Shown: piece after piece, positions 27,501-61,775 of the stretch | Layout: the number at the start of each line of letters is the position of its first letter | How positions within the stretch are numbered: the first letter of the stretch is position 1 | DNA from: Centroberyx gerrardi | Taxonomy: Eukaryota; Chordata; Actinopteri; Beryciformes; Berycidae | Assembly: GCF_048128805.1 (NCBI RefSeq) | Contig: NC_136016.1 | Coordinates: 16,636,676 to 16,700,675, forward strand | Direction of reading: 5' to 3' | DNA: 64,000 bases | The notes under the pieces: generated by a model | Databases searched by the model: none | Seen by the model: the letters and a program-made list of their open reading frames with translations, nothing else | Told to the model about the DNA's origin: nothing | Program-made: the position numbers and the translations under genes

Positions 27501-30317
27501 AGGGGATTCTGGACCTGGACTCGTCTGCCCAGACCCAGCTCCAGTTCATGTTCCTGGGCTTGGCCGAACAGGCCCAAGTACAGGCTCAGGCCCAGGAAAA
27601 GGCCCAGGTCCATGCCCAGGAAAAGGCCCAGGAACAGGCCCAGGAACAGGCCAAGGAACAGGTCCAGGCCCAGGAACTGGCTCAGGCACAGGCCCAGGTC
27701 CATGCCCAGGAAAAGGCCCAGGAACAGGCCCAGGAACAGGCCCAGGAAAACGCCCAGGTCCAGGTCCATTCCCAGGAACAGGCCCAAATCCAGGCCCAGG
27801 AACAGGTCCGGGAAAAGGCCCAGGAAAAGGCCCAAGAACAGGTCCAGGAAAAGGCCCAGGTCCAGGTCCAGGCCCAGGAACTGGCTCAGGCACAGGCCCA
27901 GGCTGAAACCAGAATCACGGCTGCTCTGAAGCACACTGAGCAGAAGCTAGAGAGCTGCCTCCTCCAGCAGCAGGAGGAGAGGGCCGGTCTCCTCAGGGCC
28001 AAAACTGACAACGAGCAGGCCCTGGAGGAGAAAGAGCGAGAGTGGGCAAAGAGAAAAGCCTTCATGGCGGATAAGCTTGCTGTTCTGGAGATGGACCTCA
28101 ATGAACTTTTGGAGAAGAAGAAGAAAAAGAAGCGTAGCTTGCTGCGTAGAATCGCTGATGCCCTTACTCCAAAGCGTAAGGAGAAAAACAAGAAGAACAA
28201 GGAGGACAAGATGGAGTCAACTTCCAACTCAGACTCTAACAAATCCTCCAATTCTTCAATGTGAGCACATTAACACCTGTGCTCACACACCCAACCCCCC
28301 TCCATCCATTTCCAACCCCCCCCCCCTTACATCCCCCAAATTCCCACAAACCCTTTGTCTTGCATTCCTTCCAGTAAACGATATCAACAACGATATCTAA
28401 AATAATGTGCTGCCTGTATAGTTTTATTTCTGTAGAGATTTGTAAGTTCCACTACAGTCAATAGTGTACGTGTAACTAGACTATTGTTGTTTGTTTGTGT
28501 GGTTTTGCTATTTAAATGCTGTTAAAAACAGAGCCATCTCTTCTCTCTCTCCTAAATGATCAAACTCAGAAATGGAAGTGGAGCCTCCATGTTACTCTAC
28601 ATTTATCTCAACCTGGAGTCACATTGTGACCTTGGAATTGTAACGTTCCAGTTGACATTTTAGTCCAAAATAATTTACTCGTATAATGCAGCTCTAAAAG
28701 AAGTCTTAATATATTGCTGAAGTTTGATATAGATGGGTATATTAACTTTGCAGTAGGGGGGTTGAAGTTTGAAAATGTGACTCTGACACAGCCTTTAATC
28801 ACAACCAGTAGAAAATAATAAGAAAACAGGGAGGAAACTTAAATTCTTAAATTCCCAACATTATAAGCAACTAAATATTGAGGTTAAGGGTCAGAACCAC
28901 AATAAATATTACAAAATATCCCTGCGATCCCAGAATGATCATGTATTATTAAATGGCCCGTTGTAATCATGAAGAAGAAGAAGAAGAAGAAGAAGAAGAA
29001 GAAGAAGAAGAAGAAGAAAAAGAAGAAGAAAGATGGTGGTGATGATGATGAATACTCTTGCTTTATAGAAATGTCAGCTTAATTTGCATTAGCCTTCATT
29101 CCAAGTTTTTTCTTCCTCTCTGACAGTAGCTAAAGCAATGCAACTTTTCACTTCCGCAATTCACCAACTTCTCGTTCCACCAGTTCCGTGACAGAGCCAC
29201 TGTCTCTTCTGTGATTGGCTGTTCTCCTGCTACTGTATTCAGGAAGTTCATTGTCATACAAAGCCTTTTTCTATCAGTTCAGTCCATTTATCATTATTCA
29301 AATCCAACAGAAAAATAGACTACAAAGGCTGAACTTGAAATACACTTTCATCAACTATCAGCCGTCTGATTTCATTACCAAAAAATGAAATTGAAAATTC
29401 ACTGCAGGCGAAGATTGAATAGCCTGTCATAAATTAAGTACTGTACTTCAGTAGTTTTTCCATTTTATGAGACATTTCAGAGGGAAATATTGTACTTTTT
29501 CCACTACATTTATCTGACAGCTGTAGTTACTACTTACTCTGCAGAATACGGTTTTACATGCAAAACATATAATAAGCTCATAAAATATGTTGCATTGTTA
29601 GAGTTTAAACCTAGAACATTAAAATACTTCTTACAGGTTAACGCATCAATTTAACACTCTGAAAGAATGAGTACTTTTACTTTTCATACTTCAGTATATT
29701 TTACTGCTAATACTTCTATACTTTTACTGAAGTCAACTTTTGAATGCAGAACTTTTACTTTTACTGGAGTATTTTTCCATTATGGTTTTGATACTTTTAC
29801 TTGAGTAAAGGATTTGAGTACTTTTTCCACCACTGCACACTACTAATACAGCACCAATGGCATAAAGAGGGTTTGTGCACAGAACATGACATGATCAAGT
29901 AAATTTTACATGACTATGTTATTAGAAAATGTCAACATTGTAATGACAGGATTCTTAACATTTGATTACTTTCTGTGTTTTATCTTCATCCCTGGCTTAC
30001 AATGGGCTAATCTGTTGAAGAGACAAACTAAAGGATGAAAATAACACTGCTGTTGCTCTCTAGGAGAGGCGTACTTCTTCAAGGACAACTTCTATTGGGT
30101 GCTGAAGAGTGGCGGGATGGACCAAGATGACGTCACTCCTAAGTCCATCGCTGTGGATTGGCTCAAATGTCCGGCTCCTGCTTCGACCTGCGCTCCGGCC
30201 AATCCTCAACCAAAAGACTGCAGCTGTGGCTTGAATGGATCCTCTGCATTGCCCCGAAGCAGTTGGCTGCTCCTGTTGTCTGTTACATTGGTAATTAATG
30301 AGCTCATCAGAAAATAG
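18506..30317 (+). CDS. mmp25: Matrix metalloproteinase 25 (MT6-MMP), GPI-anchored
   Basis: This is a secreted zinc endopeptidase held on the cell surface by GPI, acting on extracellular matrix and pericellular proteins. Ten coding exons: 18506-18598, 20366-20498, 20695-20839, 21571-21875, 22503-22682, 23785-23872, 24187-24269, 24574-24726, 25743-26036, 30064-30317; 575 aa (human MMP25 is about 560). Signal peptide residues 1-19; propeptide with [12 protein letters not shown]; cysteine switch PRCSLPD (Cys88); furin site RRRRRKR ending at 108; mature start YALSG. The zinc site [11 protein letters not shown] is at 239-249, with Met-turn SIMRP. A Pro-rich hinge leads to the hemopexin domain, closed by Cys324 and Cys527. 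The tail has CSCGLNGSS and a hydrophobic end ([11 protein letters not shown]) fitting GPI transfer. PRCSLPD, YALSG and a GPI tail favour MMP25 over MMP17. The start at 18506 is chosen because it opens the signal peptide; an acceptor at 18497/18498 precedes it. Confidence 0.93.
22084..22443. mobile_element. Internally deleted Tc1-like transposon remnant in mmp25 intron 4
   Basis: The left end contains AAAGTTTGGACACACC followed by the AATAGTAAAGACATCAAAAC block seen in Tc1-like terminal inverted repeats of fish. The right end reads GGTGTGACCAAATTTTTGAC. The transposase interior is absent. The copy ends about 60 bp before mmp25 exon 5. Confidence 0.7.
24305..24490. mobile_element. hAT-like MITE fragment in mmp25 intron 7
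   Basis: The left end CTAGGGATGCACCGATACC matches the terminus of the element at 12326. The right end is not clear, so this is a partial copy. Confidence 0.5.
25430..25570 (+). mobile_element. LINE 3' end fragment in mmp25 intron 8
   Basis: The string AATCTGTTCTTAATTGGCTC...CCTGGTTAAATAAAGTTTAAATAAATAAA is like the 3' terminus of fish L2/Maui-type LINEs, including the short terminal repeat. Only the tail is present. Confidence 0.6.
26909..28264 (+). CDS. Uncharacterised repeat-rich coiled-coil ORF nested in the last mmp25 intron
   Basis: A single open frame of 451 codons lies in the intron between mmp25 exons 9 and 10, on the same strand. I do not recognise the family. Residues 1-20 are basic ([13 protein letters not shown]). 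Residues 62-218 hold four related units of about 40 aa, alternating A-B-A-B, each with (E/D)A(E/D)...L and ending LGLDSS or LDLDSS; each B unit is followed by [10 protein letters not shown]. Residues 219-330 are almost only Gln, Ala, Glu, Val and Lys, from GCCCAG-type hexamers. Residues 331-400 look like a coiled coil. The end is strongly basic ([22 protein letters not shown]) and Ser/Asn-rich. GATGCCCAG|GTAAGC at 27003/27004 is a usable donor, so the 5' part may be spliced. It may be a young or orphan gene. The central repeat is open on both strands, which weakens the case; expression is unknown. Confidence 0.5.
28974..29033. repeat. (GAA)n trinucleotide repeat
   Basis: About 20 GAA/AAG units lie within the last intron of mmp25. 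Confidence 0.95.
29425..29840. repeat. Dispersed repeat in last mmp25 intron
   Basis: AAGTACTGTACTTCAGTAG at one end and GGATTTGAGTACTTTTTCCACCACTG at the other are the familiar ends of a common dispersed fish repeat rich in TACTTTTACT. It is non-coding. Confidence 0.6.
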
Positions 30318-34764: not shown

Positions 34765-37231
34765 CTAATGTTTCCCAAGTATGAGGCTGAGGGCCATGAG
34801 GCCGAGGGAGTAGCAGCCTTTGGAGGATCCGCTGGTCTGCGTTGTGACCGGCAGGGCTGGCTGAGTGCTTCTGAAGACGTTGACCATCAAAGGCGACGTG
34901 CTGTTGCCGACGCGAACGGTCTTGCTGAAGAGGTCAATCTGGAGACAAGACAGTCAACCAATTAGATGCAATAAAGTACTGTGTGAGCATTTGTCATCAT
35001 ACTGCTGCTTTCCATTAGAACACTGATGTACTTAAAGTCCCCATTAAATGAACTCCCATTACATTTACTTCCTGGAAAACACAGTATCATTCATGGTGAC
35101 CTCATGCTGCATTAGTAAGCAGAAATCAGATTTTTGAACAATCCCGCCCCTCCGCACCCCTCCCATCAAATAAAATTGCCTTTCTCTCCATGACTCATAT
35201 TCTATTGGTTTAGTCTTTTAAATGATCCCTCACTGCGTCATGTCCCGCCCCAACCACAAATGCATCAAATCAAGGAAGTAAAGATGCCATTTCATGTGGT
35301 CTTTAAGACCGTAATCTAAATTTACAATGAAATCCAAACTCACCAGTTCTCTGTTGACTTTGATTGATTGCTTGAACACAGTCCAAACAACAACTTCATT
35401 GCAAGTGGGTGTGGTCAAGGAGCCAAGGTAGCGATAGTACTGGGTACGATCCACTCCAACCAGGAGATCATCCAATGAAATGCCAGGATCTAGATTTAAC
35501 TGTTGACCTGCAGACAGAAACACGATCTCTGAAGGAAACTGCAGTTGAAGCGCTATTGGATTCCTAAACATCAAATCAAAATTTCCACAAGGAAAAGGCC
35601 AAAACATCCGCTTACCCTCTTCTGTGATGTTGGCCAGGTAGGAGGTCAATTTGTGCCAGGCTGCAAATGAAGAGGTTGTATTGCTTGACGTCTCCTGAAA
35701 AAAAAGCACACAATATTCAGTTCAGCTTTACTGCCATTCCACATTCCACAGTTCACAGTGGAGGGAAAAGAAAAAAAGCTTCTGTGGGGTTATGGCACAA
35801 ATAAGAGTGAAACAAAATAGGAAACAAAAGCAAAGACAATACAAGAATAAACAGTACAACCTAACAGTGCAATACAATAGTAACAATAAAGCGACTGGAA
35901 TTGCAGTTTTAACATACTGCAGTTAGTAAGTGGTACATGGTAAAGTTTAAAATGGGCGATATGAAAGCACTTCCTCACCTCTATGAGGAAACCAAGAGCA
36001 GCAAGTCCTGTGGAGTCCGCAAGGGCGAGAGTCGTGTTCCCATTAACGGATGACTTGAAATTTACTATGTGGAGCTGAGGAAGTGAATTAAAGCAAGAAA
36101 GACATTTTTTTTTAATATAGTTTTAATTTAATTATGAAGCCTTAATTTGAAATTCTGCAAGGTTCGACTTGGCCTCTCACCTCCATGGGATACTGTTTGC
36201 CGTCCACAGTGTGTTCGGAGCCGGGGACAGAGCTGCCGTTCCCCCAGTGCAGGTGGAACTGGATGCTGTCGTAGGCCTCGGACAGGCCGCCTCCTGAGAC
36301 CTGGACGCCGCTCGCAAGGGTCACTTTGACTGGAAGGGGGGAGAAAAACAGGAGGTATTGAAAACGTCCCAGATAAGAGAAATCAAACTGGCCCAGAGGA
36401 GAAAGGCCATTGACTGAAGACATCATGGGGCTGTTCCAGACTAAATTAAGAGCTACCGAAAACACCCCAACATGCAAAAAAGGAAGAAAAAAAAAGTTCA
36501 TAGTTATTATGGGAAGGGGCATATCTTTACCATCTACCCCAAGGCTTGAACATCTAGGTAACTGAAATAAGTCAAGCCAAATTCTGACAAACCTGAAAGC
36601 CAACATTATGAACCCGGTCTCCTTTATGCAACCAAATACCTGCATAAGCATTTAGGGTGACAGGACAGGTTTTCCTTCCCCCGCTGCTCACCTGTCTCGC
36701 CGGTGTTGGAGATCTTTTTCAATGTGGAGTTGCTGTTGTAGTTGGTAAAGCTGAAGGCAGTCAGGCTGGAGTCGCCCGTGGCAGATGCTGAGACGATGTT
36801 AATAGGAGACTGCCTGGAGCCATTGCAAAATTTAGGAGCAATGGTGGCCCACTGAGTTTCATCTAGAAATAGAAACAGGTGTAAAACTTTCAATGCACTA
36901 AGGGGAACAGCAGTAAAACAGCAGTAAAGTAAGTAAAGAATTAGAAAACTGTGAATCATGCTGTATAGAAGAAAGGAGGTATAGTAGCTACTTACTGCAA
37001 CTTGGAAGATGGTAACACCACTCTGTGGAGGAGGAAAACAGCGTTTTACTCATTTACTAACTTACTGATTTAATGACAAATAGTCTGCCCTAAGGTACAT
37101 TGTATTCCACAAGAATGAATGAGAACAGATTAACAAATAAATGAAGAAAATCACCTACCGACTGTGCCTGTGGCACAGTGGACGCTGGCTGTGAGGGCGC
37201 ACGCAACAAACGCAGCAAGAAGCCAATTCAT
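34765..37231 (-). CDS. ca4: Carbonic anhydrase 4-like, single domain, GPI-anchored
   Basis: This is an extracellular alpha-carbonic anhydrase (CO2 + H2O to HCO3- + H+). Eight exons read right to left: 37159-37231, 36996-37022, 36692-36862, 36181-36329, 35979-36074, 35616-35694, 35344-35507, 34765-34938; 310 aa (human CA4 is 312). Signal peptide MNWLLAAFVACALTASVHC. CA4-type Cys pairs are present: WCYHLPSC, and FCNGSRQSPINI with LTTPTC. Zinc ligands are His116 and His118 (FHLHW) and His142 (LHIV); the gatekeeper Thr is T230 in GSLTTPTC. Residue 89 (TGETG) is Glu where His64, the proton shuttle, is expected. The end, SSKGCYSLGLMALSLILGKH, fits a GPI signal. An acceptor (TTTTAG) directly precedes the ATG, so a leader exon is spliced on. 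CA15 is the main alternative family. Confidence 0.92.
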
Positions 37232-37765: not shown

Positions 37766-40700
37766 TCGGCCACTCCAGCAAACTATTTGAAACCGCCTCT
37801 GTTTTACATTTCACTCATACCTTCCCCGGGGATTTCCGGAGCTGACAAGAAGATTTTTTTAATTTTTTTATCATTAATCTTTTTTTAATTTGTTTTGGGG
37901 TTGTTGTTGTTTTTTTTTTTTTTTGGGGGGGGGGGCGTTCCCCCATTTTTGTGTTTATTTTCATGGAAGTTTCGTATAATATTTCTATAGGTGTCAGCAT
38001 ACTGAAGTGGACTTAAATTAGTCTTATTGTTCGACACCTATTATTATTTCAAATTAATGTATAGAAATGCATAGATAGACAAACAGACTCATTGTGGCTG
38101 AGAGCAAGACCCTTTTTTATATCAATAACATGAGATTAAACCTTCAAAACCAGTTTCTCTTGCTGCGTGATTTAATTCCCCCAGCTCTTCCCTTGTTTTC
38201 CATACACAGTCGATACAAAAATAAACGTCAATTGGCTCCACCCGGATAATATGACTGATGATGGCTGCTTTTCTCATACGTCATCTCATCATGATCTTGC
38301 TGGATTTTTTTATTTTTTGTGTGAACAGGAAATAAAATGTTAAAGCCTGTTACTAGGTGTGTTAGTATTAAAGGAGACAATGTTAAGCTTAAAATGTAGG
38401 ATACAGTAAGTAAACCCATTGATAGTTTGAAATAACATAGGACCTACTTAGCACCTACTTAAATGTCTAAAATGTGTTTACATTAATTCATTTAGAAGCT
38501 TTCCTCTTCACTGCAACAATTTTAACACAAGAGGAATCAAATTTGAGAACTTTGCTTTCAAGAATCCCATTTATTCGTACGTTATTTCTTAGCAAACAAA
38601 ATAAGAAAAAAGTTAAGGAAATAAATCAGAGCTATTTTGATGAATATCAGCTTTTCTTGACTTTTTTCCTATGACTAAAGTTATCCTACAAAAAAATGAA
38701 ATAAAAATATATATATATTAAAAAAACAAAAAACAATAGCACTTAAGACATTTTTTTTTTCCTAAGAAAGTTTATGTGAATCCAGCTCCTGGGATGTAGT
38801 GAGTGGGGAAACCAGTCTTCAGATGGAGGGCCCAGAGCAAGACCCTGGATTCCCTGTCGCTCCAGGAGAAAAAAAAAAGACAAATTTCTCCTTCAGGGGA
38901 TTAATGGAGTATCACAATATGTCAAAGTTTGGTTATAACTGGACAATATCAGTGTAATATCTAGGATTTCTGTTACCAGAAGGTATTAGTAGTATTTACA
39001 AATGTAGTTTTCTTTCAGTATTTCCAAACATATCAAATAAGCCTGTGGTTTGTTAACTGAAAATAGAGATGACGTAATACTGTGGCATCAGGGCTGGAAA
39101 ATGCAACATTTGCAGTTTCTCTTTAGTTGTGTCGTGACTGTGCCCTCCACAGCTGTTGGCAACACGGATAAATAATTATGAGCTTAAAAAAAGCTAAAAC
39201 AAATAGTATTGAGCTGCATTCTCTGCTCTGAGAATTTGTTAAATTATTTCTGAGATATAATTGTTCTGAAAAATAGTTTATTTCCATGTGGGATAATCAT
39301 CACTTGCTCACTAAAGTTGTGCATGACTTGCAGTGTAAATTTCACTTCACTGTATATGGCAGCACTGTGATCAGGTCCAACCTGTAGTGCGCAGGCCTGG
39401 ATCTCATTTATATAACACTGATATAACATCATGCCCTTCAGTCTCATTCACTCAGAATGAATGGCCAGCATGTAGTGGCCTAGGCTAGCTGTATTGTTAT
39501 CATTATCATATCCATCAAACCTCAGAATGAGTCACTAGTACCCAAAGAGCTGAGTGTGACCTGTTCCTGACCTTTTTTTTCTGTATTACCCGTTTCATAC
39601 AATAAAACAACCTCAAATGAATCAGGTAGTTGATGTCCTTAAGGCCAGATTTAGGAGACCAGATCGAGGGGGGAAACACCTCCATAATAGCCTTAAAGTG
39701 TCTTTGAATTTGTTCTGAATACATTCCAAGTGCTTTTGGAAAATATTCTATTATCATATATCACTAACCCATCAGTGAGCGACTCTTTCTGATGTATCCA
39801 TTGTAGAAACAATCCAGACCGAGACGAGAGAGCGGGATCAAGAGGGGGGAAGAGAGTGAAGACTGGGAATGTCTCAACGGATATGAATTTATGAACATGA
39901 CTGCTCGACTTGTGAACTGCCTACATGCAGTCCTTCCATTCTGATGGAGCTGGACTGCTGCCAGTGTCACCCTTATCAAGTACACTGTACTGTAGACTCT
40001 CACATTCCAACAGAGTGATTTTCTGGTTTGTCCACTTCGACAGACCACAAGTGTATTGAAACTATTGTTTATCTGTTAATAGCCAAAGGACAAATGTGTA
40101 TTTTTCTCACAAATGCCTAAAAGTCTCAGTGAAATCTATTTTAGTTCAAAGTCAAATTCACTGACACTGGCAAGTAAATGTCATATTAAGGCCACATATT
40201 ACACTGCCTCAATACTATTTAAGTAGCAATTTAGTAACAAACTAATCCTTTTATCTGCAGAGAGCCAGTTTAATCAAACTTGTTTGAACGGGATGAGACT
40301 CCAGTCTAGATCACTCAGCAGCTTATCTTGTGTATACAACAGGCTGGCAGGATTACTGTGCGTCTATAGACGCTAATCCCCCAAAAAAGTAACATTAACA
40401 GACCTTCAGGCCAAGTATATTGCCTGTCTATATAAGTATATTGGCAGCCAGGTGAGTTATCATTAGACTCAAAGAATCGTAGTTTTTCCAGGTAACAAAA
40501 GCACAAAAAAACAAAGTTAAGCCAGTGCGTCCTGGTGGCTCAGAGGGCAAAGTAAATAGAAAGGTCATGGGTTTAATTAATCGCACAAATCTGGGTTACA
40601 GATCACCACTTTTCTTGCTTACATCTTTCTTGGCACTCTGCAATGTCAACTATCCACTTAAACAAGGGAGTTGACAGTAAACTAAATGTTAGAGTAGTGG

Positions 40701-41697: not shown

Positions 41698-44600
41698 CTA
41701 GACTGAAAGAGCACAGAAACAGGCCAGCAGCAGAAACATCATCATGGGTCCTGGGGCGCTGGAGGCTGCTGTGGTGTAGACCTTCCTGCTGTGAAGGGGC
41801 TGCTGGGGCCGATACACATCGTGATAGCCTGCATGACGCGGGAACATCTTCATCTGGTGGGGGAAAAGAAACATTAAGTGGCATTTTGGATAGACACACA
41901 GGTGCTAGTTCCATTCTTTTGACTTGCTGTGCATCTGCTTTCATGCCACTTTTGCAAGTTATTTTCCAGCTCTGTTTCACCTGGTCAAGTGACATGACCT
42001 GTCATGTTAATACTACACAATACACACTTCATGGTGGCTATCAAGTTTACACACCCTTTCAAAGTGTGCTGTCCAACAGACAAATGGCAAGCACCAGGCA
42101 GAGCAGGAGGATTATGTGCATAAAGGTGGCATAATCCACTCCTGATCTGTTCCTGTTATTTGATCCTTCTTGCCCATCCCACCGAACTTCAACTGAAAAT
42201 GACAAGTGTTGACAAAGTGCTCCACACAATGGGATGGGGAAATAAAACCTGCAGACTCTTCCTTATGCACTTGGCTTTTAACAGCCTGTCCTAAACAGTT
42301 AAACAAAAATTACAAAACTGTCACCAATTTAGCTTCTGATGCATCTCTGACTAACATTTCATTATGCTGAAAATCTAGCATACTGTACTACTACTGTTAT
42401 AGATTAAAGACTTGTACTATTACACAATGACAAAAGCCCTCTAAAGCAGAGATGTTAATCACAATCTAAATATCACCTCTCTGGTTGAATAAGTGAGTGA
42501 CTTTTAACATAGGGACTTGAGTAAAAAACAACAAAAAAAAAAAAATTGTAAAACCTGTGCTACTGCAATGAATGATTTAGACTTTGCAGATAATTTAACC
42601 AAGCACCGGGTAGCATGTTTGGAACGGGTGATTCAGTGAGATAAGTCACATTATCATTCAACTGAACTGTCAGAAACATCACTATGCTCCATCTTGGTCA
42701 TTGTCTCTGATGAAATCGTTGATCCTTTCAGTTACTTGTCACCACCCTTTTAGTTGGACATGAACTTCTAAGCTGGTCCTCATTTCAGTATCAAATAACA
42801 CACGTCATATGATTCAGTGAGTCTCATCTACGTGCCAAGAAGCTAGAGCAGGGATGGGCGAGCACGTGCCATGGGGCGCTGAGAGCATGTGCATGGAGTG
42901 GGTATGGCAGTGGCCACACCTTAGCTTCATCGAGTAATTCAGAAAAATTCTCTAGTAATTAAACAAATGCTCTTAATAGGCAAACGGCTCTTAATATTTT
43001 CACTGAAATAGTCCCTCTAATCAAAAAATAGATCAGCCCAAAATAAGTTACTTCCCCTCCCTTCACCACAATTAATGTGCAATTTTTCAGGTTTTGGCCA
43101 TCATGTAGTTAGGGTGTACTGTAGGGTATTGAAACAATAGACGCAAGTTTGTAAATTTCACTCAATCAATAGATGTTTTAAAATCCAACAAATTAAACAT
43201 GTCTAACCATCTCAGAACAATGAGACAGACTGGCTCATGCTAATGGCTGTGGAGCCTCAGCTGCTAAAGGCAAAAAATGCCAAAAAAAGGCACACAATGG
43301 ACTTTACGATTATTGCACTCAGTCTCAACAGAAACTGTCAATTATAAATTAATTGCAATGGATTGACAAGGCAGTTTTGCAATTGCACCTATGTATTGAA
43401 ACAGATTAAGGAGGCACAGAGGCAGTTTTGTAAAATGTATTCAGTGTATACTTGATTTTAAAATGTAATAAATGTGCTCAAATGCTACATAAGCCTTTTG
43501 TTTTGTTTTCTAGAGTTCGGTAATTAGTCCTTCGCTGTCCAAGGTTCTGAATTACGCACTAATAGGGCATATGTGCCTGATAGGTGGTACTAATAGCATA
43601 TGGTGTGCTCAAAATAAAGTTTGTTTCTCAGATACCCTCTGGGTAGCTAAGGATTTTGACACTGCCATACCGTGGCTTGTGCTGAAAGCTTGTGCTCATT
43701 CCAAACACTAATTTCACTGATTGGTTCCAGTCAAATCAGCGGGTGGTGTATATGGTTGGAATGGAAACCTGCGGACTCTCTGCCATCCGAGGCACATGGC
43801 TGCCCTTCCCTGAGCTCGGGCATGAGGAAATTAATTTGAATGGTTTTCCCAGGGTGCAGTTAATTACATACAGGTTCCGTAAGGTTTTTACTTGCAGTCA
43901 TTGTCAGCTGAAAGATGAGACCTTGTGGGTGTTTTCACTTAAAACACCCTAGTAATGTCTCAGTAGACACCAACACCACCTCTACAGCTAGACTGCTCTT
44001 AGTGTACTACATATGCAATCTATTCCATGTTGATGTAAGAACAAACTGAACCCACATGCAACACTGGATTAGCAGCATTCATTCAATGATGCTTGAAAAT
44101 GCGCACAGGTGCCGGTAAAGTTGACTGGGATTCACCAGATGCACTCAGCATAACCTTCCATCTGTGTACAGCAGGGAAAGGCCATCATGTGCCATGGAGG
44201 GCTGAGTGCATGCAGGTTTTCATTCCAACGGATCAGTTCCACCCGTCTGATTGAAGTTGTGCTAATCAGTGAAATCAGCTTGTGCTGTGATTGGTTGGAA
44301 TGAAAACCTGCAGACACGGCCCTCCATGTTACGTGGTTGCCTGTCCCTGGTAAACAATGTCTGTAATAAAGCGATGCTAATCATCGACTGTTGCCAGAAA
44401 AATCTGGCAGTCTTTCATTTCTGTCATCTAGCCCTACATTCATCACAGTCACACCCAGATGCTGCTATGCATCATCATACTCATGGCATTTGATTTAGTT
44501 CATTCCAGTATAGCACAGTATGACAAATCATCACCACACGTCTCTTATAGTGCCTGTCACTGAATGTAATAACCTGTTTTCCCATCAACATCACCGTATG

Positions 44601-47600
44601 AAAGTGTTTTTGCTATGACTTGCGATCAAATCGTATGCTACTCATTGCTTGGCATAATACATTTCAACACAGTCACCTTAATTGAACCAGGTGTGTAAAA
44701 AGGTGTGCTGAAAGATGCAGGACATGGAGTGTAAGTAACTGGATCAGACACTTTCTAATCTCCAGTGAACAACAAGATTTGAACTACAGGAGTTAATACA
44801 TAAAGATTTCTCTCTGCATAGGCCTGCTGCACGCAATATAATGCCAGTTTACAGCATTACTTTCCCTTCTATCCTGCCTGACTCTAAATGCAGATTATCA
44901 AAATATACCAAAAAAAATGCAACTGGACCACCAGTTTGACACACTGAACCTGAAAGTAACCCGAGTCAACATTCAAAGTTGCCACAACTTATGATCACAT
45001 CTAGTCAGCACCAAGATGGCCAATGACACGTACCAGGTCCATGTCCATCTTGATAGGATTTTTAAAGACGGTCCAAACCACTGCTTCATTACATGTAGGG
45101 GTGGTGAGGGAGCCATTGTAGCGGTAGTATTCTGTGCGGTCCACATCACCAAGCAAGTCATCAATGGAAATCTCTTCAGTGACCTCAACTTTGCTGCCTA
45201 AATTAAACAAAAGAGGAAAATATGTAGTGGTGCATCTTTTTGGTGTCCAAACTCAGGTTTTTAAAGGCTATGCTACAGTAGAGTGTCCACTCACTGATGT
45301 TTTGAATGGCCGACAGGTAGGAGGTAAACTTTTTCCAATGATCCGAGTTTGACGTGGAACCTCCCTGCAGAAACAAAGGGTGAGCGATAAAAAAGGAACA
45401 CCAAGTTCTCAAGGGCTTACCATCACTATCCAACTGTTTGATAGCCCAGTGGATTGTGCTGCCGCTTAGTCAAAAACTAAAATGATAAAATAGATCCCGG
45501 TTTAGGGAAGCTTCACCATTTACCTCTTGACTTTCTGAACCTCCGCCATGTCCCTTGTGATCATCAGCAGCCTAGAAAATGGAGAAAATAGACCCCATGT
45601 ATCGTCAGAAGAATGCCATCTGGAATATTCTGGAAGCTTCACCTTTGTTCTACCAAGAAGTTTTCACTGAGCGTCCAACATCGGTGCATTTGCAGTAAAG
45701 GGAAAAGGAAAAAAAAAAAAAAAAAAAAAGTTCTCATTTTCCCCCAGCAAGCAGTAATATGCACTGTAAATATCCTCAATAAGCAAATTGGGTCTCATGC
45801 CTGAACATCTGGAGTTTGCTTTACATCAGCTCATGTTTGACCAGTGTCAAATGTTCATAGACGTACTGTGTTAATGCGGCATGTTTACATATCATGCCCA
45901 CATACTTGACAAAGTTTGAAAATACTGTAGTTCAGAATTTACAATAAAGCTTTGCCTCCCAAACTGAAACACTGATTTACTCTTTAGCCAATTTATCATT
46001 AGGCATCTCATTACCAGGCACAGTATTTATAAGATGCATACAATGGATGCAAAACGCAAAACAAAACTGAAGTGTAAGAAAGTCTTGATGCTTTGGGCAG
46101 GGTTTCTACTGAAGCTAAAGAGAACGATGGGCATTCGTCTTTACAACTGTTGACATTGACAATAAACCATTTACGTCAAACAACCTCTCTCTCATTTAGT
46201 AAACATAGCTGAGCTTTTTTCTACACAATACTGTATTTCCAGATGAACCCAATCTCTCTGTTCCCGTCATTGTAACCATAAGACACTGACTCATAACATA
46301 ACATTAGTCTTAACGCACTGAACTTTACCTCAATAAAGAATCCTAGCACCGCCAGTCCGGTTGGAGTCACTTTTGCCTCCGCCAGCGTTAAATCTTTCCT
46401 CATGTTCACAATGTGCATCTGAATAAAAACACAAACCAATGACATTGAAAACACAATCCGCAAAATATACTAGAAAATGACAGAACACCTTCAATGCAAC
46501 AACTCCATCCTCTACTTGGTATGTAGTGTTTTACCTCCATTGGGTACTTCTTTGAGTCCACAGCGTGCTCCGAGCCCTCAGAGCCGTCCGATGTGCTGCC
46601 CCAGTGGAAGTGGAACTGGAGGGTGGAGTAGACGTAACCCAGACCGCCGCCGGAGACCTCCACCATACCGTCCTTCAGCACAGCCTTCACTGGGAGGGAG
46701 TGAGAGCAGTGGGAGAAGTGTGAGTAGTGGGATATGAATGGCATGAGCGTAAATGGCAAAACATGGGAATTTCAAAGTGGATTCCGTCCTCTAGTTCTTT
46801 GCCTGTAATTTGGTCAAAATATGTATAGCCTGGACAGCAAAATCTTTTAAATTGACCCTATGCCACCTTTTGACTTAAGTATTGCCTTGTACCATGGTTG
46901 GGGTGGTTTTCTCAAACTATAAGTTAAAAGTAAAAAGTGTAAGTTAAGTAAAAGTATAAGTTAAGTCGTAAATTAAAGTCTTTGTTCAGTTAATCATGGC
47001 TTAAAATGGCTTTAGGAAATGGCTTTAATAAAAATGTTATGAAATTTGGTTAGCATTTCATAAAAATGCAGATGATTCCATTCATAAAAACACATTTTGT
47101 ATAGTGAAATTTTATTAATAACCCTTAATGTGCTTCATATTCATGCCAGCAATCATTTTCTAAGAGTAGGTGTCATTTTTGGAAAATCTCATTTTGGAGT
47201 TTACATTGTAGTGCCAAGACCATTAAACCAAAGTGAAACCTGCCCCATCAAAGGCTTAATTTAAGCCCTCTTTTAGGACCTGGGTAGTGCCAATCTTCCT
47301 TTAAGAAAATTAAAAAAAAAAAAAAGTGCTAAATCTAGGGCTGTTTGAAGATGTATATGCAAACAATGATTCAATTGAGCCAAAAGATATTAGTCCATCT
47401 AAGTCCTTGCTTAATTCATGTCCAGAAAGCAGTCCTTAATGTATGTAATAACAGTTGCAAACCTGAATGGCCTGTGTTGGTGATGTACTTCATGGCATGC
47501 TTGTCGTCAAACTTTGTGTAGGTGAAGTCATCGAGTCGTTGGTCCTCCACAACGTACTTCTTCTCTATGTTGATGGGTGACTGGCGCTCGCCACCACAAT

Positions 47601-47769
47601 GGGACTCAGGCAGAAGGTGCCAATGAGCAGGACTGTACGCTGAGGGCCGAAGGACAAGCGTACCGTGAATATCACTGACGTACTGAAAAATAAAATCCAA
47701 ATCCTGCTCTAACAGCATTATTAGTTTGCAGTTACATACCGCAGCGGTCATCATAGCACCATGCATGGC
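41698..47769 (-). CDS. Downstream carbonic anhydrase unit (domain 2) as a separate-gene alternative
   Basis: Exons 47740-47769, 47463-47639, 46535-46689, 46329-46418, 45524-45571, 45295-45364, 45034-45197 and 41698-41853 form one CA4-like domain with a GPI tail. As a stand-alone gene it would need a signal-peptide exon ending in phase 1 upstream of 47769. I found none between 47770 and 47960, and an exon farther right would lie within the other unit. The last intron is 3.2 kb (41854-45033), while the others are short. This unit carries an extra 48-nt exon (45524-45571; [12 protein letters not shown]) that the two sister units lack. Confidence 0.45.
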
Positions 47770-50700
47770 CTAAAGAATGGAAAAACAGTTGTATTTAACA
47801 TTTCAGTTCACAGTCATAATTTTTGTTGCCGATACTAGTGTCATGAACCCACTTGAAGATGGTGGAATTGCAGGGGAAGCATATACATGGCGTCCATTCA
47901 GAGCTTGCGGAGGCCGATAGACGTTGCTGAGCATGGTCTTCATTGGAAACCGTTTAGTCTGAGGAAAACAAACAAGAATTCTCCCAACTGGCCTACAATT
48001 GTGTTATAAGCAGGACCATTATATTGTCAGTTCTGAAGTTGTAAATGACAGCAAGTATTGGACAGCATTTTCCAGCAGCATATAAATTCAATTTGGGCCA
48101 ATATTTAATGAGTTGCCTGTTTAAACTCTACTGTATATTGGAAGTGCTTTAAAAACCGCATAAACTGGAAAACAATTAAAAGTGGTTAAAAATAAAAGAT
48201 TGAAAGTGGGCCAAAAACAAACAGCATAAAAGTCAGAACATTTCAAGAACTGAATAGTACTGAATTAACTAGCCTCAGGCAGGGTGTTCCCAAACCTAGA
48301 AGTCCTGATGGCAAACCAACAATCACCTTTAGTAATGATCTAGACAGCAAAACAGTCAGAAGGGCCGTGCCAGAGGATGTCAGGCTGGAAAGTCTAATGG
48401 CTAAGATGATTTGTCACTCAGCCAGAAATATAAGACCTCACACAAAAATGTAGACAAGTCGGGTTTTTAAGTGTAATAAATTGTACTCTAAAGACATTCA
48501 TAAAAAAAAAGTGAGAAAGCCAAAAGGACCATCTTTCATTGTTCTGAAGACTGGCTTGCTTGAGGCAAACTGTTGTGCAACCGTTGAGCCACCTGACTGG
48601 GGCAGGAGGGAACAGACCACATGCACACCTGACACCTGCGTCTACAGTATTTCACCTCCCGATCTGTCAAATGCAGGTGGCTGTCAGTCACTTAGATAAG
48701 ATGGAGAGGCAGATTACATACGCATGCCATTCAGTGACGTACAGATTGAAAAACAGATACTGTTGCTAAAGTCTTATACTCACAACAAGCTAGACAGAAG
48801 GACCTACTGAAACTGCAATATAAAAATTTAAATAACCACAAAAAAGGATTATTATTTCTTTTATTTCTATTTTTATTTCCATTACCACTATTATTAGGCT
48901 CCATGTAATTCTCATGTAATTTTAATTCCAGGGAGGATTTTCAGCCAGTTGTGCCCGTTTAATTGCCTTGAAGATCAAAACAAAAGGAGGTCCGCAGTCT
49001 GTATGTGAATCCTTCATAGTGTGGTCCTTCAAGCTACTAGTGTGCAAACCACATATTTGTGACGGCATCATTTGAATCAGTACATGCAGCCACCACATGT
49101 TTGTGGTATACTGTATATGCTGTATGTAAACCAGAGTGAGTTGGCAAACTCAGCATCAAGGGTGTGTCAAGGTTTACAGGGAAGGCAGGAGAGATAAAGT
49201 CATGACCAGACAGTAAGGCGACAGGAACTACCGATACTGTTGGAGGCCGTGGCCTTTTTCCATCTGTATTCTCGTGTTACCTTTGTGGATGTTTCCGTAT
49301 TACAAAAAAAAAAAAAAAAATTAAGTAATAAAAAACAATATAAATAAAATACTGTTCTCTGTTCAGTCAAAGATAAAGATAGTAGCCTTTGTGTTTGCCT
49401 CCTGCGTCTCCAGATCAGGTTTCACTGCTGTGTTGGCAAGCATTCAAATTCTGGCTTGTGCTATTGTCACTACTGCAACTGATACAACTATGATCAGGAA
49501 AAAAAAGACAATGCCTAAAAAGGGAAAGAGGGATTCCAGCCAAGGTTAGAGTCAATTGAAATGTAATTTCTGTAGCAATTTCTCTAGTTTTTCACCATGG
49601 TCGAAAACATCTGTGGCCAAATCAAAGGCTCAATGGCATAATGTTTATTAGATTGCGCATGAATCACATTAAATTGAGCTATCGACTGTCAGGTTTCATC
49701 ACCTGAGTGTGTTGTGGTGTTTACTGTACATTTATATTGTAAATCCTGTCTGTAAACCAAATTTCCCTTAAGGACAGTAATGTTTGAATGTCTCACACAG
49801 TCAGATAAGTTCATATTGTTAAGATCATTCAACTGTGACCCGTTTCACAGCTTTTCCTCTCTGCAGAGGGGCGTGTTTACTAAACACAGCCTTTCCCTTC
49901 TCCTGGAAAAGAAAGGTTTCTCTGTTCCTTTTAAAGTGTGACATCTTACCAGGTCTTTGCTGACTTTGATTGGCTCTTGAAAGACTGTCCAAACCACTGC
50001 TTCGTTGCAGGTGGGGGTGGTCAAGGAACCCATGTACCGATAGAATTTTGTGAGGTCTACATCTCCAATCAGGTCGTCAATAGAAATGCTGTGGCTTATA
50101 TTAACCATAGAGTCTACGAAAAGATAGAGGAAACACAAATAAGACAATATTTAAATTATCAGTGAAGTTAAATGGATTTAAATACATTAAAATAACCATA
50201 AGGTCCCAGGTTTGATCCCAGAAACATTATCATAAAGGAGCAGCATGGGCTAAGCCCTAGCCTGTACCACAAACCGTCGGCAGAAACTCCATTTCTGCAG
50301 TGAGTCAATGAATGTGTCCCTGGGCAACTATAGATGTGCCAACAGACAACAATGCAAGTTCAAAAACAAATGCCTTTAACCACCCACAGACTGGCAAGAC
50401 CTACAACATCCAAGGGAATGATTTCTGTAACACAAGTGCGCATGTGGATTGGCAGGTTTCACTGTAAACAACCTGAGCACAGGAGTGCCATTAGAAATCA
50501 CGACAAGTCCCTGTGGCAGTGAACTTCATACAGGCACAACACAATGCGTCCTCACTCAAATATCTAGGTATTGAACAATTTAAGTGGGGGGTGACATCAA
50601 TATCCTACTATTGAGACTTTGGGATTTATGCAGTGGACACATTGGCATTTAAGGGATTTAATGAGGACTGACATTTGACTTTAGTTATAATATTTTTAGG

Positions 50701-53212
50701 CTTTAGTTTTCATTCAACCTTATTTAGTTCTCAAAAAACACATTGAGGTCTGGAACACAAGAAAAAAAGGAAAGTGGAGAAGTAAATGAATAGGGAATAC
50801 ATAAGGAATCCGATTAGAGTGAAGATCAAGGCCTAAAATGATCCAGATTTAACAAGGATACCAATTAATATCAGATAATCCTTCCTATTGAAAAGTGACT
50901 TAAATGTCAATGGCTGTCAATTACTTTTATTTCAATTTCATTTATTGTACAGTTTGTGTTAGCACCCAGCATGATACCTGTGGATATTTAGTGACACCAG
51001 TTTTTTTATTTTCTCATCTGATGAAGAGTGCTAAGCTTGAAAAATCAATAAATGTATACACCTTGGGAGCAGCTCATCGTAATGTACGCAACAACATGCA
51101 TGAAGTCTTAAGCGATGTCCCCCTTTAATGACATTACTGAGAAAGTGAAACAAAAAGGACCAACCTTTAGCTGAGAGGTTCATCAGATAAGATGTGAAGT
51201 TATCCCACGTTTCTGATGTAGCTCCGTCTTCTGTTGCCTTCAGGGAAGAGACAATGACTATTAGTAAAAAGTTTCATCATGGGCAAAATACTGTCCTACA
51301 TGTTCCTGAACTCACGTTATTCCTGATGTCTGGGGCAGTTCAATATTTGAGAGGGTTGTCAAGGTGTAAAATCTAGACTCGTATTACTAGGCTGTCCAAG
51401 TCAATTAAATGTCTGCAAAATTACAGCTTTACCATCACTGGATAGACAGATGAAATTTGGCTTTGGTATCTTCTTATATTTTTAGTGACCTTTCCCCTAA
51501 ATCATTTTCTTTTCAAAGCTTATACCATTGATAAGACCTTTCTTTGGAAACGATTTAGAAGTGTGCGACATACATTTATGAAAAACCCCAGAACAGCAAT
51601 TCCCTCTGGATCCGCCTTGGCCTGCTCCACGGTAAGACCCTTCTTCAGACTGACTATGTGCATCTACAGGAAATGGAATAATTTGGAAAAACAGATGGAA
51701 AAACATGGCACAAAACTTAACAAAAAACACAGGTTTAGCATAATGTTGACACTACCTCCATGGGATATCTGTGTCCATCAATCATGTGCTCCGAGCCCGG
51801 GTGGTGGTCTGTATCCCCCCAGTGGAAGTGAAACTGAAGTGAAGAATACGTTCCATTGAGTCCGCCTCCTTTCACTTCAACCTCATTTTCCTCCAATATG
51901 CATTTCACTGGCACCGAGGGAAAAATAGAGAAGAGCGTTTAATAACTACCTAGTTACAGTTGAAGATTACTTAAACATGTCTTTATCATGTGAATTGCTT
52001 TGGGATTGCTTGAGTCATGCTACTGTACATATTAGCATTACAGTTCGTCCTGTCTTTGGCGCACTGACAGTATGTATAGCATATGTAAATACAGCCTGTC
52101 ACTTCACAGGCACCTCAGGCTAAGAAAAAACAATAAGGGCAACTGGAGTCTCAGCTGGCGTACCTGTATGTCCGTTGTTTGTGAGAGACTTGAGGGCATG
52201 CTGAGAGGAGAAGTTGACGAGGGTAAAGTTATGGAGTTTGTCGTCAGTCACAGCGTGGCTGGTGATGATATTGATAGGAGACTGCTTCTTCCCCCCGCAG
52301 AAAGCACCGGAGATGCTGCTCCAGTGGGTCGGGGTGTGCTCTATCAAGAGTTAGGGGTGCTCTTAATACCATAGGCCAATGCAAACTGTTGAAATTTTGG
52401 CCCAAATCGTCCAAAAAGTCAGTGGTTCTCAATCCTGGTCCTCGGGACACAGAGTACAGCTGCTTTTCTATCCTACTTAGTGGTTAAACGAAGCCTAGTG
52501 CAAGTTCAGTCAGGAAGACCACTTAGTTCACAAATCTGTCCCCTCTAGCCTTCTACTACTTCTTCCCACCTCAGAGGTTAAGGCTGCGTCTCTTTAGATC
52601 TACTTCATCCACAAATTATCACTCTGCCCTTTCATTTGCTAAATATGATCTTCTCCCCATAATTGGGAAATAGCTTCAGATGGATCAATGTTTTGATTCA
52701 TAAACCTACTCTCTCCTGATTTAATCGTTTTCACCTGCCGTCCGAGGTGTAAATCAGTCTGTGATTAGATATCTAGAGTGAAAACTCAACAAGGCTCTGG
52801 GTCCTGAGCACTTGGATTGAGAACCTCTGCATTAAGTCAAGAAATCTGCCCTTACTTACCACAGCCAGTATAGCACCAATCACTGCCGTCTGAAAGAAAT
52901 ACAGCGACATACTGTGAATACTGCAGGAGCCGAGTTGAACAAAAAGCATCGCGGACATCTATTACTGTCACTTGAAAAAAATATATATATGTAGTATTCC
53001 ACATTATGCAGTGGGAAACACAGCATCCCTCAGGATCCTGTAATCCATACACTGGAGAAGTTACATTTGTGATTAGTACAGAACAAGGCAAAAACTTCTG
53101 GAGCTGACCAACACCCCAATTTAATTTTAGTAGAAACTGATGTACTGTACTCACCAGATGCTCCAACTAAAGCTCCCCAACACAGGCACAGCAGAAGAGT
53201 GGAGAGATGCAT
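41698..53212 (-). CDS. Tandem two-domain carbonic anhydrase 4-like protein, GPI-anchored
   Basis: Two complete alpha-carbonic anhydrase units join into one 579-aa frame. Exons, right to left: 53155-53212, 52860-52889, 52164-52340, 51756-51907, 51574-51663, 51165-51237, 49950-50113, 47853-47958 (linker), 47740-47769, 47463-47639, 46535-46689, 46329-46418, 45524-45571, 45295-45364, 45034-45197, 41698-41853. Signal peptide: residues 1-19. Domain 1: zinc ligands His115, His117, His141; Thr225; shuttle His87. Domain 2: His379, His381, His406; Thr505; shuttle His351. Both keep CA4 cysteines (WCYTGC, FCGG, PTC; WCYDDRC, HCGG, PTC). The linker (about 249-283) resembles the last exon of unit 2 but stops where the GPI signal would begin. 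The C-terminus ([21 protein letters not shown]) is a GPI signal. Phases agree at every junction. The joining intron (47770-47852) is only 83 bp. No separate signal exon was seen for unit 2. The alternative is two genes. Confidence 0.65.
42847..43826. mobile_element. Two halves of a split MITE
   Basis: AGCAGGGATGGGCGAGCACGTGCCATGG at 42847 resembles the left end of the element at 44172. TTGGAATGGAAACCTGCGGACTC...GCACATGGCTGCCCTTCCCTG ending near 43822 resembles its right end. The 0.8 kb between them is unrelated sequence. They may be one disrupted copy or two solo ends. Confidence 0.4.
44172..44349. mobile_element. Compact inverted-repeat MITE
   Basis: Arms of about 60 bp are inverted copies: CAGGGAAAGGCCATCATGTG...GCAGGTTTTCATTCCAAC on the left, and GTTGGAATGAAAACCTGCAG...GGTTGCCTGTCCCTG on the right. 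It is about 178 bp, non-coding, and lies in the last intron of the carbonic anhydrase gene. Such snap-back elements are abundant in fish. Confidence 0.7.
45710..45730. repeat. Poly(A) run
   Basis: An A homopolymer in a carbonic anhydrase intron, of no evident function. Confidence 0.8.
47803..53212 (-). CDS. Alternative single-domain form: upstream carbonic anhydrase unit read through to its own stop
   Basis: If the 83-bp intron at 47770-47852 is retained, the linker exon continues in frame to TGA at 47803-47805. The product would be one catalytic domain ending [18 protein letters not shown]. That tail is short and carries Lys and Thr, so it is a poor GPI signal compared with unit 2. The product would then be secreted and soluble. 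It uses the same first eight exons as the two-domain model and keeps all catalytic residues. This is also the model to adopt if the locus proves to be two separate genes. Confidence 0.5.
52420..52829. mobile_element. hAT-type MITE in intron 2 of the two-domain carbonic anhydrase
   Basis: The left end CAGTGGTTCTCAATCCTGG and the right end CTTGGATTGAGAACCTCTG are near-perfect inverted repeats. CAGNGGTTCTCAA ends are typical of hAT-derived non-autonomous elements. The interior is non-coding. Confidence 0.7.
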
Positions 53213-58260: not shown

Positions 58261-61200
58261 TCAAAGTAGGGAGGAAATGGTCCTGCAAAGGAGAGAGAGG
58301 TCAGAGCACTGAACTACACACAAACAATTAATATACTGAGGTTTGCCTATTAAGCCTTTTTTGTGTTGCTGTACAAGACAAAAAATCTGTCTATACTAGG
58401 CTCACATAAAGTATATATTTTCTGTACTGGCCTCTCCATGATCATCACTGAACTTCTAACAATACTGTCAGTGTTATTTATTTTTATATGCTGGCCTTAT
58501 GCTAAATAAGTTGCAGACCTCATTTTCTGAGTTTCTGTCTAGTCTGAAGGTGTTGTATGTTGTCCACAGTTAAGAGTGTTGCACCCTGTTTTCTGGGCAG
58601 ATCTTGCAAACTGTACTTGCCTTGGGGCAATAAATAATATTGAATTATGTTCATGTATTGTGAAGAGTCTTACTGAAAGAGGGACCCAGTTAGTTCGTCG
58701 ACAAGGCCACCTGAAAGGAGCGATCAAAACAACAGTTTAGACAAGTCAGAGTTGACAAAAATGTAATTAAACATCGGTGTCATGGAATAAAACTAAAAAT
58801 AATGGTATTTACCGGGTGTGCAAATTGTGTCACACAGCACTGGACAAAGGTAGCAGTGTGAGCATTCCTGGAAGACAGAAGCAGGTCAAAGTGAGGAGGC
58901 TGTTGTTGCCTTCATCATGTATTAACATGGAGCTGGGTGCTGCAGATGCTTACCTGGCAGTGCTGACAGTGGTCTGACTCGTCTCCCTCTTCACAGGGGC
59001 ATTTGTCACAGTTACTAGTACAGTGCTGAAGGAGGGAAGGGACACACATGGTGCACTTAGGCTTGATCATCATGTAAAGTAATATCAATGTGATTATGTT
59101 CCTTTGAATCTGACAATTTTTACTTTAATGATGGGCTATGCCACCGTCGTTGAGGTGTTCATTACTAGTAATAGTTACACCATTAAAGAGGCTATTCCTC
59201 TCATCACATCATTTTACCTCACAGATGGAGCAAACACTACACAGAGAGCCTGAGTGGAAGTGTGCAGTTTCAGTGGCGGCCTCCTCTTCACTCATATCAT
59301 CCTCGCTTTCTGCTTCGTCGCCACCTTCAGGCTCATCTATAAAAAGTCAACAGACTTATCAACATTACTGCGCTGTGTATAAAACTATGTCTCCCCTTCA
59401 TGTAAACATTCTTTAGACCAACATGAGATCATATTATCTGTGTCAGGTCGTGGACAGCCGGTGTCCGGTTATGGTAAATGAGAAGATGCTTACACAATGA
59501 TATCACATGTGCTGTAGCTGTGCAAGCTAAGCACTGAACACCAAGTACTAAGTCTACATGGCCTTTACTGAGAAGGCCAATTGCATAGATAAGTATATAC
59601 AACAAAAATCAGATGTAAAGTCCAGTGAGCAAACTATCCCATAACCAAACTTTGCAGTACTATTCTTCCAATGAATTGCAACTATTTAGACTGCATCATT
59701 AGTTGAAAGTGAATGGTTGAAAAACTCTGCAACACTGGAACGCCATTTTGCTGCAGATGTACCAAGTAGTATAACATATAGGGTAAAGTGAATCCCAAAG
59801 CCACTTGAGACAAATTACTTCTAATACAAGCTGGTGCTCAACTAACTGTTTCTCAAACATGCACCTGTCAGCCTGACCTTGGTGTGCAAGTCATAATCAG
59901 GTATACAATATCTTTGTTAATGCCTGGGAATCAAGAGGCATGACTTAATCGGCTGCCAAGAAATGGTGCATTTTAACTTTGGTTACAGCTCTACTGTGCT
60001 GAGTGGATTATGTGTGTTATACTGCTTCAACTCTATACCAAATGTACACAGCTCAACAGTACCTGTGTTTTTGGATCGACAAAAGGTTTGAACAGTTTAG
60101 ATACTGCCGGCTACTGCAGAGATATGGCGATCTATTTTAAGGCTCTACAAGTGTGACAGCATTCCTGCGGTAGTTGCAGCTAGCCTCACAATATCAGAAA
60201 AGTCCATTACATTGACAGAGAGAGGATACACTTCAAGCAAAAGAATCAGTACCTTATTATACTTCATAATGAATCACTACATTAAATGTAACACTTTGGC
60301 ATTTTGAAGCAAAACCCTGTAGATATCCAACAAAACAGCAATTTCTTTGAATTTTGCATAGCGTCCTGCTGCCAACCATGATGTAATGTAAGTGGGTTCA
60401 CTACCTTCATCCTCCTCATCTTCCTCTGCTTCAGCCGCATCCTCTTCCTCAGCATCGTCCTCATCGTCGTCCTCCTCCTCAGCAGTGTCGGCCTCTTCCT
60501 CTGCTTCCTCTTCTTCTTCAGCAGCGTCAGCCTCCTCCTCTTCCTCAGCTGCTTCATCATCCTCTTCAGCTGCTTCATCATCCTCTTCAGCTGCCTCCTC
60601 TTCCTCTTCAGCTGCCTCCGCTTCCTCTTCAGCTGCCTCGTCTTCCTCTTCAGATGCCTCCTCTTCCTCCTCCTCTGCTGCCTCCTCATCATCATCATCA
60701 GCTGTGGCCTCCTCTTCCGACTCCTCTTCCTCATCAGAATCCCCCTCTTCCTCATCAGCATCCTCCTCTTCCTCATCAGCAGCCTCATCTTCCTCATCAG
60801 CATCCTCCTCTTCCTCATCAGCAGCCTCATCTTCCTCATCAGCAGCCTCCTCTTCCTCATCAGCATCCTCCTCCTCCTCATCAGCATCCTCCTCTTCCTC
60901 ATCAGCAGCCTCCTCTCCCACATCAGCAGCCTCCTCTTCCTCATCAGCACCCTCCTCTTCCTCATCAGCATCCTCCTCCTCCTCCTCCTCTTCCTCCTCA
61001 TCACTCTCCTCCTCAGCGGCAGCCGCCTCCTCACCCTCCTCTTCGTCAGCCTCGGCCTCAGCTGCCTCTTCCTCCTCCTCCTCCTCCTCCTCATCTTCTT
61101 CCTCAGCTTCCTCCGTCGCTACCTCTTCCTCTTCCTCCTCTCCAGCTTCATCATCACCATCACCATCACCATCGGCAGTTTCCCCGCCGTCGTCGGCCAC

Positions 61201-61359
61201 CACCTCCTCTAGATGACCCTCTTCTTCTGCGTTTTCGCCGCGGACTTCTCCCTCTGCCTCAGCCACATCCTGGGCGCTCACCACACCAGACAGCGGGGCC
61301 TGGAATGGGCACAGGAGCACAAGCAGGAGCCCCACCATCCAGCCTTTCACAGCCGCCAT
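58261..61359 (-). CDS. hrc: Acidic, Cys-tailed luminal protein, HRC-like (histidine-rich calcium-binding protein)
   Basis: This is probably a calcium-buffering protein of the sarcoplasmic reticulum lumen. Six exons, right to left: 60405-61359, 59218-59336, 58954-59025, 58813-58867, 58674-58710, 58261-58282; 419 aa. Residues 1-28 are a signal peptide (WMVGLLLVLLC). Residues about 30-318, all in exon 1, are almost only Glu, Asp and Ala in short repeats such as DEEEEAA and DADEEEE. After residue 345 come 14 cysteines in CxxC-type spacing: SLCSVCSICE, HCTSNCDKCPC, HCQHCQ, ECSHCYLCPVLCDTIC. The end is LVDELTGSLFQTISSLL. Signal peptide, acidic repeats in a large first exon, and a Cys-rich tail match the HRC plan. 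The His-rich motif that names the mammalian protein is nearly absent. If the 58674 donor is not used, translation stops at TAA just after Gln. The alternative is an unrelated acidic ER protein. Confidence 0.7.
60420..61180. repeat. Coding trinucleotide-rich region (GAG/GAT/GCT) in hrc exon 1
   Basis: On the plus strand this reads as CTCCTCTTCCTCATCAG units of about 21-24 bp, repeated many times with variation. They encode the DEEEEA blocks. Length polymorphism and assembly collapse are likely here. Confidence 0.9.
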
Positions 61360-61775
61360 CTTGGAAGACTTCGGACAGCTGAGGATTTCTTCTAAGGTAC
61401 TAATCCACGCGGGATGATCGGCCCTGCTCTGCTTGTTCCCCCGGAAACAAAGACAATCTTTGTCAACACTTAAAAACAAAGTTAATCCGTGGAAAAGGCC
61501 TCTGTTTTGACAGGAGGTTGAAGACGATTCGGGGATATTGTTCAGGTTATGGCTCCAGGCCGCAGAGAGAGGGGGAGAGGAGGGCCGAGGACAGAAGACT
61601 GACAGAGCAGAGAGCCAGCCTTGTGCTGGGAACACAGAGGACACAGTGGCAACAGGATTGGGTGTGTGAGTGTGTGAGTGTGTGTGTATATGACTGACAG
61701 AGGCACATGTCTGGGAAGAATGCTCCTGATGCCCTTAACCCAGTGTATTAGAGTGGGGGCGTGTGCATATGAGGG

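Follow-up and report, generated by a model that had tools for sequence, protein, structure and literature searches.

A CA4-type carbonic anhydrase gene with two domains in Centroberyx gerrardi, a likely genomic copy of the fish CA4C formed by tandem fusion

CA4C, a CA4 with two consecutive carbonic anhydrase (CA) domains, was described in Eupercaria fishes from transcriptomes, the CA sequences being predicted from the assembled transcriptomes of 14 species (PMC7918649). It is placed there among the membrane-bound CAs that every member of Eupercaria has and that are associated with high activity in the gill. It is reported as gill-specific in an icefish, and in one icefish its level stays below 5% of that of the two major gill CAs; its domain duplication is termed recent (PMC7918649). 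The name does not necessarily correspond to zebrafish ca4c. The gene described here was first noticed in an original prediction, made from the DNA sequence alone, which took vertebrate CA4 to be single-domain. That premise is contradicted by CA4C, and since the latter has already been published, a two-domain vertebrate CA4 is not new (PMC7918649).

The giant clam enzymes DDCA (Tridacna squamosa) and tgCA (T. gigas) likewise have two alpha-CA domains in a membrane-associated gill protein (PMC5879104). They are mollusc enzymes, however, and their domains are proposed to sit on opposite sides of the membrane; an independent origin from the fish gene is likely. The CA of Dunaliella salina is an internally duplicated alpha-CA as well, but it is algal and has no transmembrane part (PMC5879104). 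Besides the two giant clams, the same text lists four two-domain CAs, from a deep-sea bivalve, a green alga, a bacterium and a red alga, and no fish is named in that list (PMC5879104). The passages that describe CA15 copies in fishes make no mention of a two-domain protein (PMC12530279, PMC9032886, PMC10210623).

The window, i.e., the whole stretch of DNA that was analyzed, comprises 64,000 nucleotides at 16.64-16.70 Mb of contig C20. It contains three CA units, all on the minus strand. The first two, whose domains are called D1 and D2, are joined in one gene, and the third, found by tblastn of D1 and D2 across the window, lies farther along the same strand and is called gene C. No other CA unit was found in the window with either half as query. 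The features are as follows.

53155..53212, minus strand: exon 1, carrying the start codon and the signal peptide (by hydropathy, a 19-residue hydrophobic run), ending in phase 1
49950..52889, minus strand: exons 2-7, first domain, rebuilt exon chain
52889-52860, 52340-52164 and 51907-51756, minus strand: exons 2-4
51663-51574, 51237-51165 and 50113-49950, minus strand: exons 5-7
47853..47958, minus strand: exon 8, the last of the first domain, ending in phase 1 at the fusion donor CAA/GTGGGT
47770..47852, minus strand: intron 8, the fusion intron, 83 bases
47740..47769, minus strand: exon 9, the first of the second domain, 30 bases (WCYDDRC), beginning in phase 1
45034..47639, minus strand: exons 10-15, second domain, rebuilt exon chain
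47639-47463, 46689-46535 and 46418-46329, minus strand: exons 10-12
45571-45524, 45364-45295 and 45197-45034, minus strand: exons 13-15
41698..41853, minus strand: exon 16, which closes the second domain and holds the GPI-like hydrophobic tail and the stop
34765..37231, minus strand: gene C, a single-domain CA4-type gene with 8 exons and 310 amino acids, a signal-like start and a hydrophobic tail

The two-domain gene runs from 53212 to 41698. When rebuilt from the raw sequence it has 16 exons and 15 introns, all of the latter GT-AG and compatible in phase, and the joined exons give 1740 nt, or 580 codons, with a single terminal stop. The predicted chain of 16 exons without a phase conflict, including the junction of 47853 to 47769, was thus reproduced exactly, and the gene model is confirmed as real. 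Compared with D1, D2 has an additional 48-base exon (16 residues, a multiple of three) and an additional 159-base intron, both within 45295-45571 on the minus strand. The exon may be optional, or an intron may have been gained.

PF00194 is the sole Pfam family that matches the protein at E-values up to 0.001, and it does so in two stretches. The match of the whole protein has an E-value of 8.9e-146 and 484.6 bits, against a curated cut-off of 27, and the best stretch is 32-276. Both halves carry QFHFHWG, MEMHIV, NGH or TGH, GSEH and GSLTTPTC, in which we take the residues to be His94 and His96, His119, His64, Glu106 and Thr199, respectively. These motifs align with human CA4 in D1 and in D2, and human CA4 (1znc, 5ipz) is the best solved match of both. 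It has the same catalytic residues and four comparable cysteines, but one domain only. Each half has four CA4-type cysteines, the second of which is shifted relative to human CA4 in the alignments. The three zinc-binding histidines, the gatekeeper Thr, His64 and the CA4 cysteines that had been read in both domains are therefore present, and the two halves appear from their sequence to be full alpha-carbonic anhydrase domains of the CA4 type. By hydropathy only, a signal-like hydrophobic exon opens the first half and a GPI-like hydrophobic tail closes the second, giving one signal-like start and one GPI-like tail for the whole protein. Potential N-glycosylation motifs are unevenly distributed in the gene (41698-53212, minus strand), with seven in the first domain and two in the second. 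Gene C has Glu at the position where D1 and D2 carry His64 in the alignment, and its proton shuttle may therefore differ.

CA4C resembles this gene in being CA4-type, in having two consecutive CA domains and in occurring beside single-domain CA4 genes (PMC7918649). It is termed membrane-bound, with no mention of a GPI anchor in the passages that describe it, and it was predicted from transcriptomes, whereas here the exon structure and the junction come from the genome. A protein of this build is thus of an already known kind, and what the window adds is the anatomy of the gene: the junction, the probable relic of an old gene end, and exon phases that would allow exon 1 to be spliced to the second domain. 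We consider it likely, with a probability of about 0.8, that the gene represents, in a spiny-rayed fish, the genomic form of the known two-domain CA4C, produced by tandem fusion and having one signal peptide and one GPI anchor. The assignment to CA4C draws on architecture and likely clade, this gene and CA4C being compared by description.

The first and second units are separated by the 83 bases between exon 8 and exon 9. We scanned for signal exons as an ATG with a hydrophobic stretch and a phase-1 donor within 12-59 codons, a definition that exons split otherwise would escape. From 53300 to 47771 there were 12 candidates: exon 1, one more with the ATG of exon 1, and ten at 53004 to 50106. 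None of the 12 is below 49949. The sequence thus does not suggest that the second unit starts at a signal-peptide exon of its own, as this simple scan gave no candidate for it between 49949 and 47770. Gene C served as the control for the signal scan, the tails and the donors; its start exon was recovered among four candidates, and the start exon of the first unit was likewise recovered. The scan is loose, with a background of 3.9-5.5 candidates per 10 kb, and about one chance candidate would be expected in the empty 2.2 kb.

The end of the first unit differs from those of the other two. Read past its donor, exon 8 yields an 18-residue tail with a maximal 9-residue hydropathy of 1.32, versus 2.96 in the second unit and 2.47 in gene C. 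The mean hydropathy over the last 15 residues is 0.96 for this tail and 2.57 for the second unit; the contrast is slight with gene C, at 1.09. The first unit, judging from this tail, seems to be without its anchor. The 5′ part of intron 8 continues in frame to a stop at 47805-47803. This read-through and exon 16 each reach a stop after 153 nt, compared with 171 in gene C, and because the distance of the stop from the exon start equals that of the second unit, the start of intron 8 is probably the relic of a former anchor-coding gene end.

On a matrix built on what we take to be textbook frequencies, the fusion donor (47853) has a score of 6.6 bits. It ranks 10th lowest among the 22 donors of the two-domain gene and gene C, and 2.8% of the 3781 GTs on the strand score as high or higher. 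Among the GTs of the terminal exons, the top score is 1.4 in the second unit (nine GTs) and 1.3 in gene C (six GTs); the best in phase 1 scores −3.7 in the former, and the latter has none. The fusion donor, which lies in what was once a terminal exon, therefore scores like genuine donors, and the matching control exons hold none as good. A phase-right donor of this quality is expected by chance in roughly 6-7 of 100 such exons (7 GTs in exon 8 up to its stop × 0.028 × 1/3). Taken alone the donor is thus modest evidence. Stronger is the joint pattern of the donor, the tail, the signal scan, the 83-base gap and the lack of AATAAA or ATTAAA between 48109 and 47116, which fits one fused gene.

D1 and D2 share 54.6% identity over 260 codons (pS 0.74, dN 0.41), versus 42.9% (280 codons) and 43.4% (274 codons) for gene C against D1 and D2, respectively. 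Across the three comparisons pS is 0.725-0.749 and dN 0.41-0.58. Synonymous sites are near saturation while the proteins are conserved, which indicates long-standing purifying selection on both domains. We also built a small tree that places D1, D2 and gene C with human CA4 and four further CA loci of the genome; its rows are partial, and the outgroup is a CA6-like locus at C2:15.40 Mb. D1, D2 and gene C are grouped (SH-aLRT 91, UFBoot 85). Within the group, D1 and D2 are joined weakly (69.7/74, from partial sequences); this branch bears on whether the twin domains would be each other's closest relatives, as a match to CA4C would require. Over the tree columns identity is 56.4% for D1 and D2 (220 columns), 48.2% for D1 and gene C (218) and 47.1% for D2 and gene C (221). 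D2 is slightly closer to the CA6-like outgroup than to gene C, at 49.7% over 167 mostly conserved columns, which argues against placing weight on the tree. The outgroup locus was dropped as a CA4 relative, as its pieces look CA6-like. Near-saturated synonymous sites fit uneasily with a duplication termed recent (PMC7918649); the two would agree if the duplication is old and the fusion came later.

The origin put forward in the original prediction, in which a gene was duplicated in tandem and the copies came to be spliced together across the gap, draws support from the exon chain, the tail, the signal scan, the donor and the identity of D1 and D2. A CA4-type gene would have been duplicated in tandem, after which the first unit would have lost its anchor-coding end and the second its promoter and signal exon. 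A donor inside the old terminal exon would then have linked the units across the 83-base intron. The predicted product would carry a single signal peptide and a single GPI anchor, with a short linker of about 12 residues connecting its two catalytic domains. It would interconvert CO2 and bicarbonate on the outer cell surface, most likely in the gill. The locus thus offers a model of how two tandem genes may fuse once one has lost its anchor end and the other its signal exon; a probable relic is kept in the 83-base intron. A two-domain CA4 also raises the question of whether two active sites on one anchor alter CO2 excretion at the gill. The doubling of CO2 hydration per anchor suggested in the original prediction is a hypothesis, to be set beside the low level of CA4C in the gill of one icefish (PMC7918649).

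Alternatively, one promoter and signal exon may serve two single-domain enzymes, the fused form being minor or absent, which we regard as rather unlikely. Splicing of exon 1 to exon 2 would lead to a secreted product ending at the stop in intron 8, and splicing of exon 1 to exon 9 to a GPI-anchored product of the second domain. The phases allow this: phase 1 is found at the end of exon 1 and at the start of both exon 2 and exon 9, so exon 1 could be spliced directly to exon 9, and that join reads in frame (29 residues). The read-through of exon 8 also yields a short tail that ends at the old stop position. Against this, no AATAAA or ATTAAA is found on the minus strand between 48109 and 47116, so a first-domain transcript would have neither before 47116, which is inside the second unit. 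An AATACA is visible in intron 8, which we take to be a weak variant of the polyadenylation signal. Two-domain CA4 proteins, moreover, were predicted from the transcriptomes of Eupercaria (PMC7918649). As exons 1, 2, 8 and 9 all meet in phase 1, the locus might also act as a splicing switch with three products: the double-headed enzyme on its anchor, an anchored form with one domain made by splicing exon 1 to exon 9, and a secreted form of the first domain that ends at the stop in intron 8. We regard this idea as equally unlikely; if true, the switch would tune surface-bound versus free extracellular CA activity.

That two separate adjacent genes were chained by accident is less probable still. 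CA genes do occur in arrays, e.g., CA15b clusters of four to five genes in salmonids (PMC12530279) and three CA15 copies on one chromosome in Leuciscus waleckii (PMC10210623). The window itself has a third CA unit in the same array, and the chance rate of about 6-7 in 100 exons for a comparable phase-right donor also leaves room for accident. The second unit, however, lacks a candidate signal exon, the anchor seems absent from the first, and exons 8 and 9 are 83 bases apart; without a second signal exon, an anchor or room between them, two independent genes are unlikely. Least probable of all is an assembly error that removed sequence between two genes, since the window is embedded in a contig that is at least 16.7 million bases long, the units are strongly diverged, and good splice sites flank the remaining intron; nor is the pair an assembly duplicate, as D1 and D2 have diverged with both frames kept open.

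The neighbors of the two-domain gene agree with its placement at a Ca4 locus. They are the following.

20285-30317, plus strand: pieces of a matrix metalloproteinase (MMP) gene, matching matrixin and hemopexin and ending in a hydrophobic stretch
near 6.6 kb: Pax6-like homeobox start, with Pax6 as best PDB match (E-value 0.00016) and no Pfam match

The nearest solved structure of the MMP hemopexin piece is MMP-14, and the gene fits Mmp25 by synteny and by its hydrophobic end. In acanthopterygian fishes, Pax6.2b is described as flanked by Prss22 and Mmp25, and Ca4 and Trpm4 are also named in the legend of the synteny figure (PMC3554528). The MMP and Pax6-like neighbors fit this Pax6.2-Mmp25 region, which supports a Ca4 locus of a spiny-rayed fish. 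Between the MMP exons, at 26858-28264 on the plus strand, is a 468-codon open frame with Gln/Glu/Ala repeats, the tandem units being 36 and about 255 bases long. Another long open frame at 60277-61734 on the minus strand would encode a very acidic, Glu/Asp/Ala-rich repeat protein; a signal-like stretch comes after an internal Met. No Rfam family was found in the window at the gathering threshold; ARAGORN made one tRNA-Glu call (40073-40165, plus strand), which is without Rfam backing.

Across the genome (778.9 Mb assembly) there are at least 77 PF00194 exon matches in 21 clusters, where matches less than 60 kb apart were joined; some clusters are without an exon type. Among the matches listed, the cluster of the window, with three exon sets, is the only one of the 21 with more than one set. 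The cluster at C4:27.13 Mb has two matches in the range of the HxH exon. A scan of viral contigs gave no relative (one stretch matched a pattern, none was confirmed), and a scan of genome contigs gave one bacterial relative with 27% identity (one of six stretches). C11:22265484-22267271 and C61:78065-79852 carry nearly identical CA exon sets; the C61 contig is short, and the pair may reflect a recent duplication or a haplotype that was not merged.
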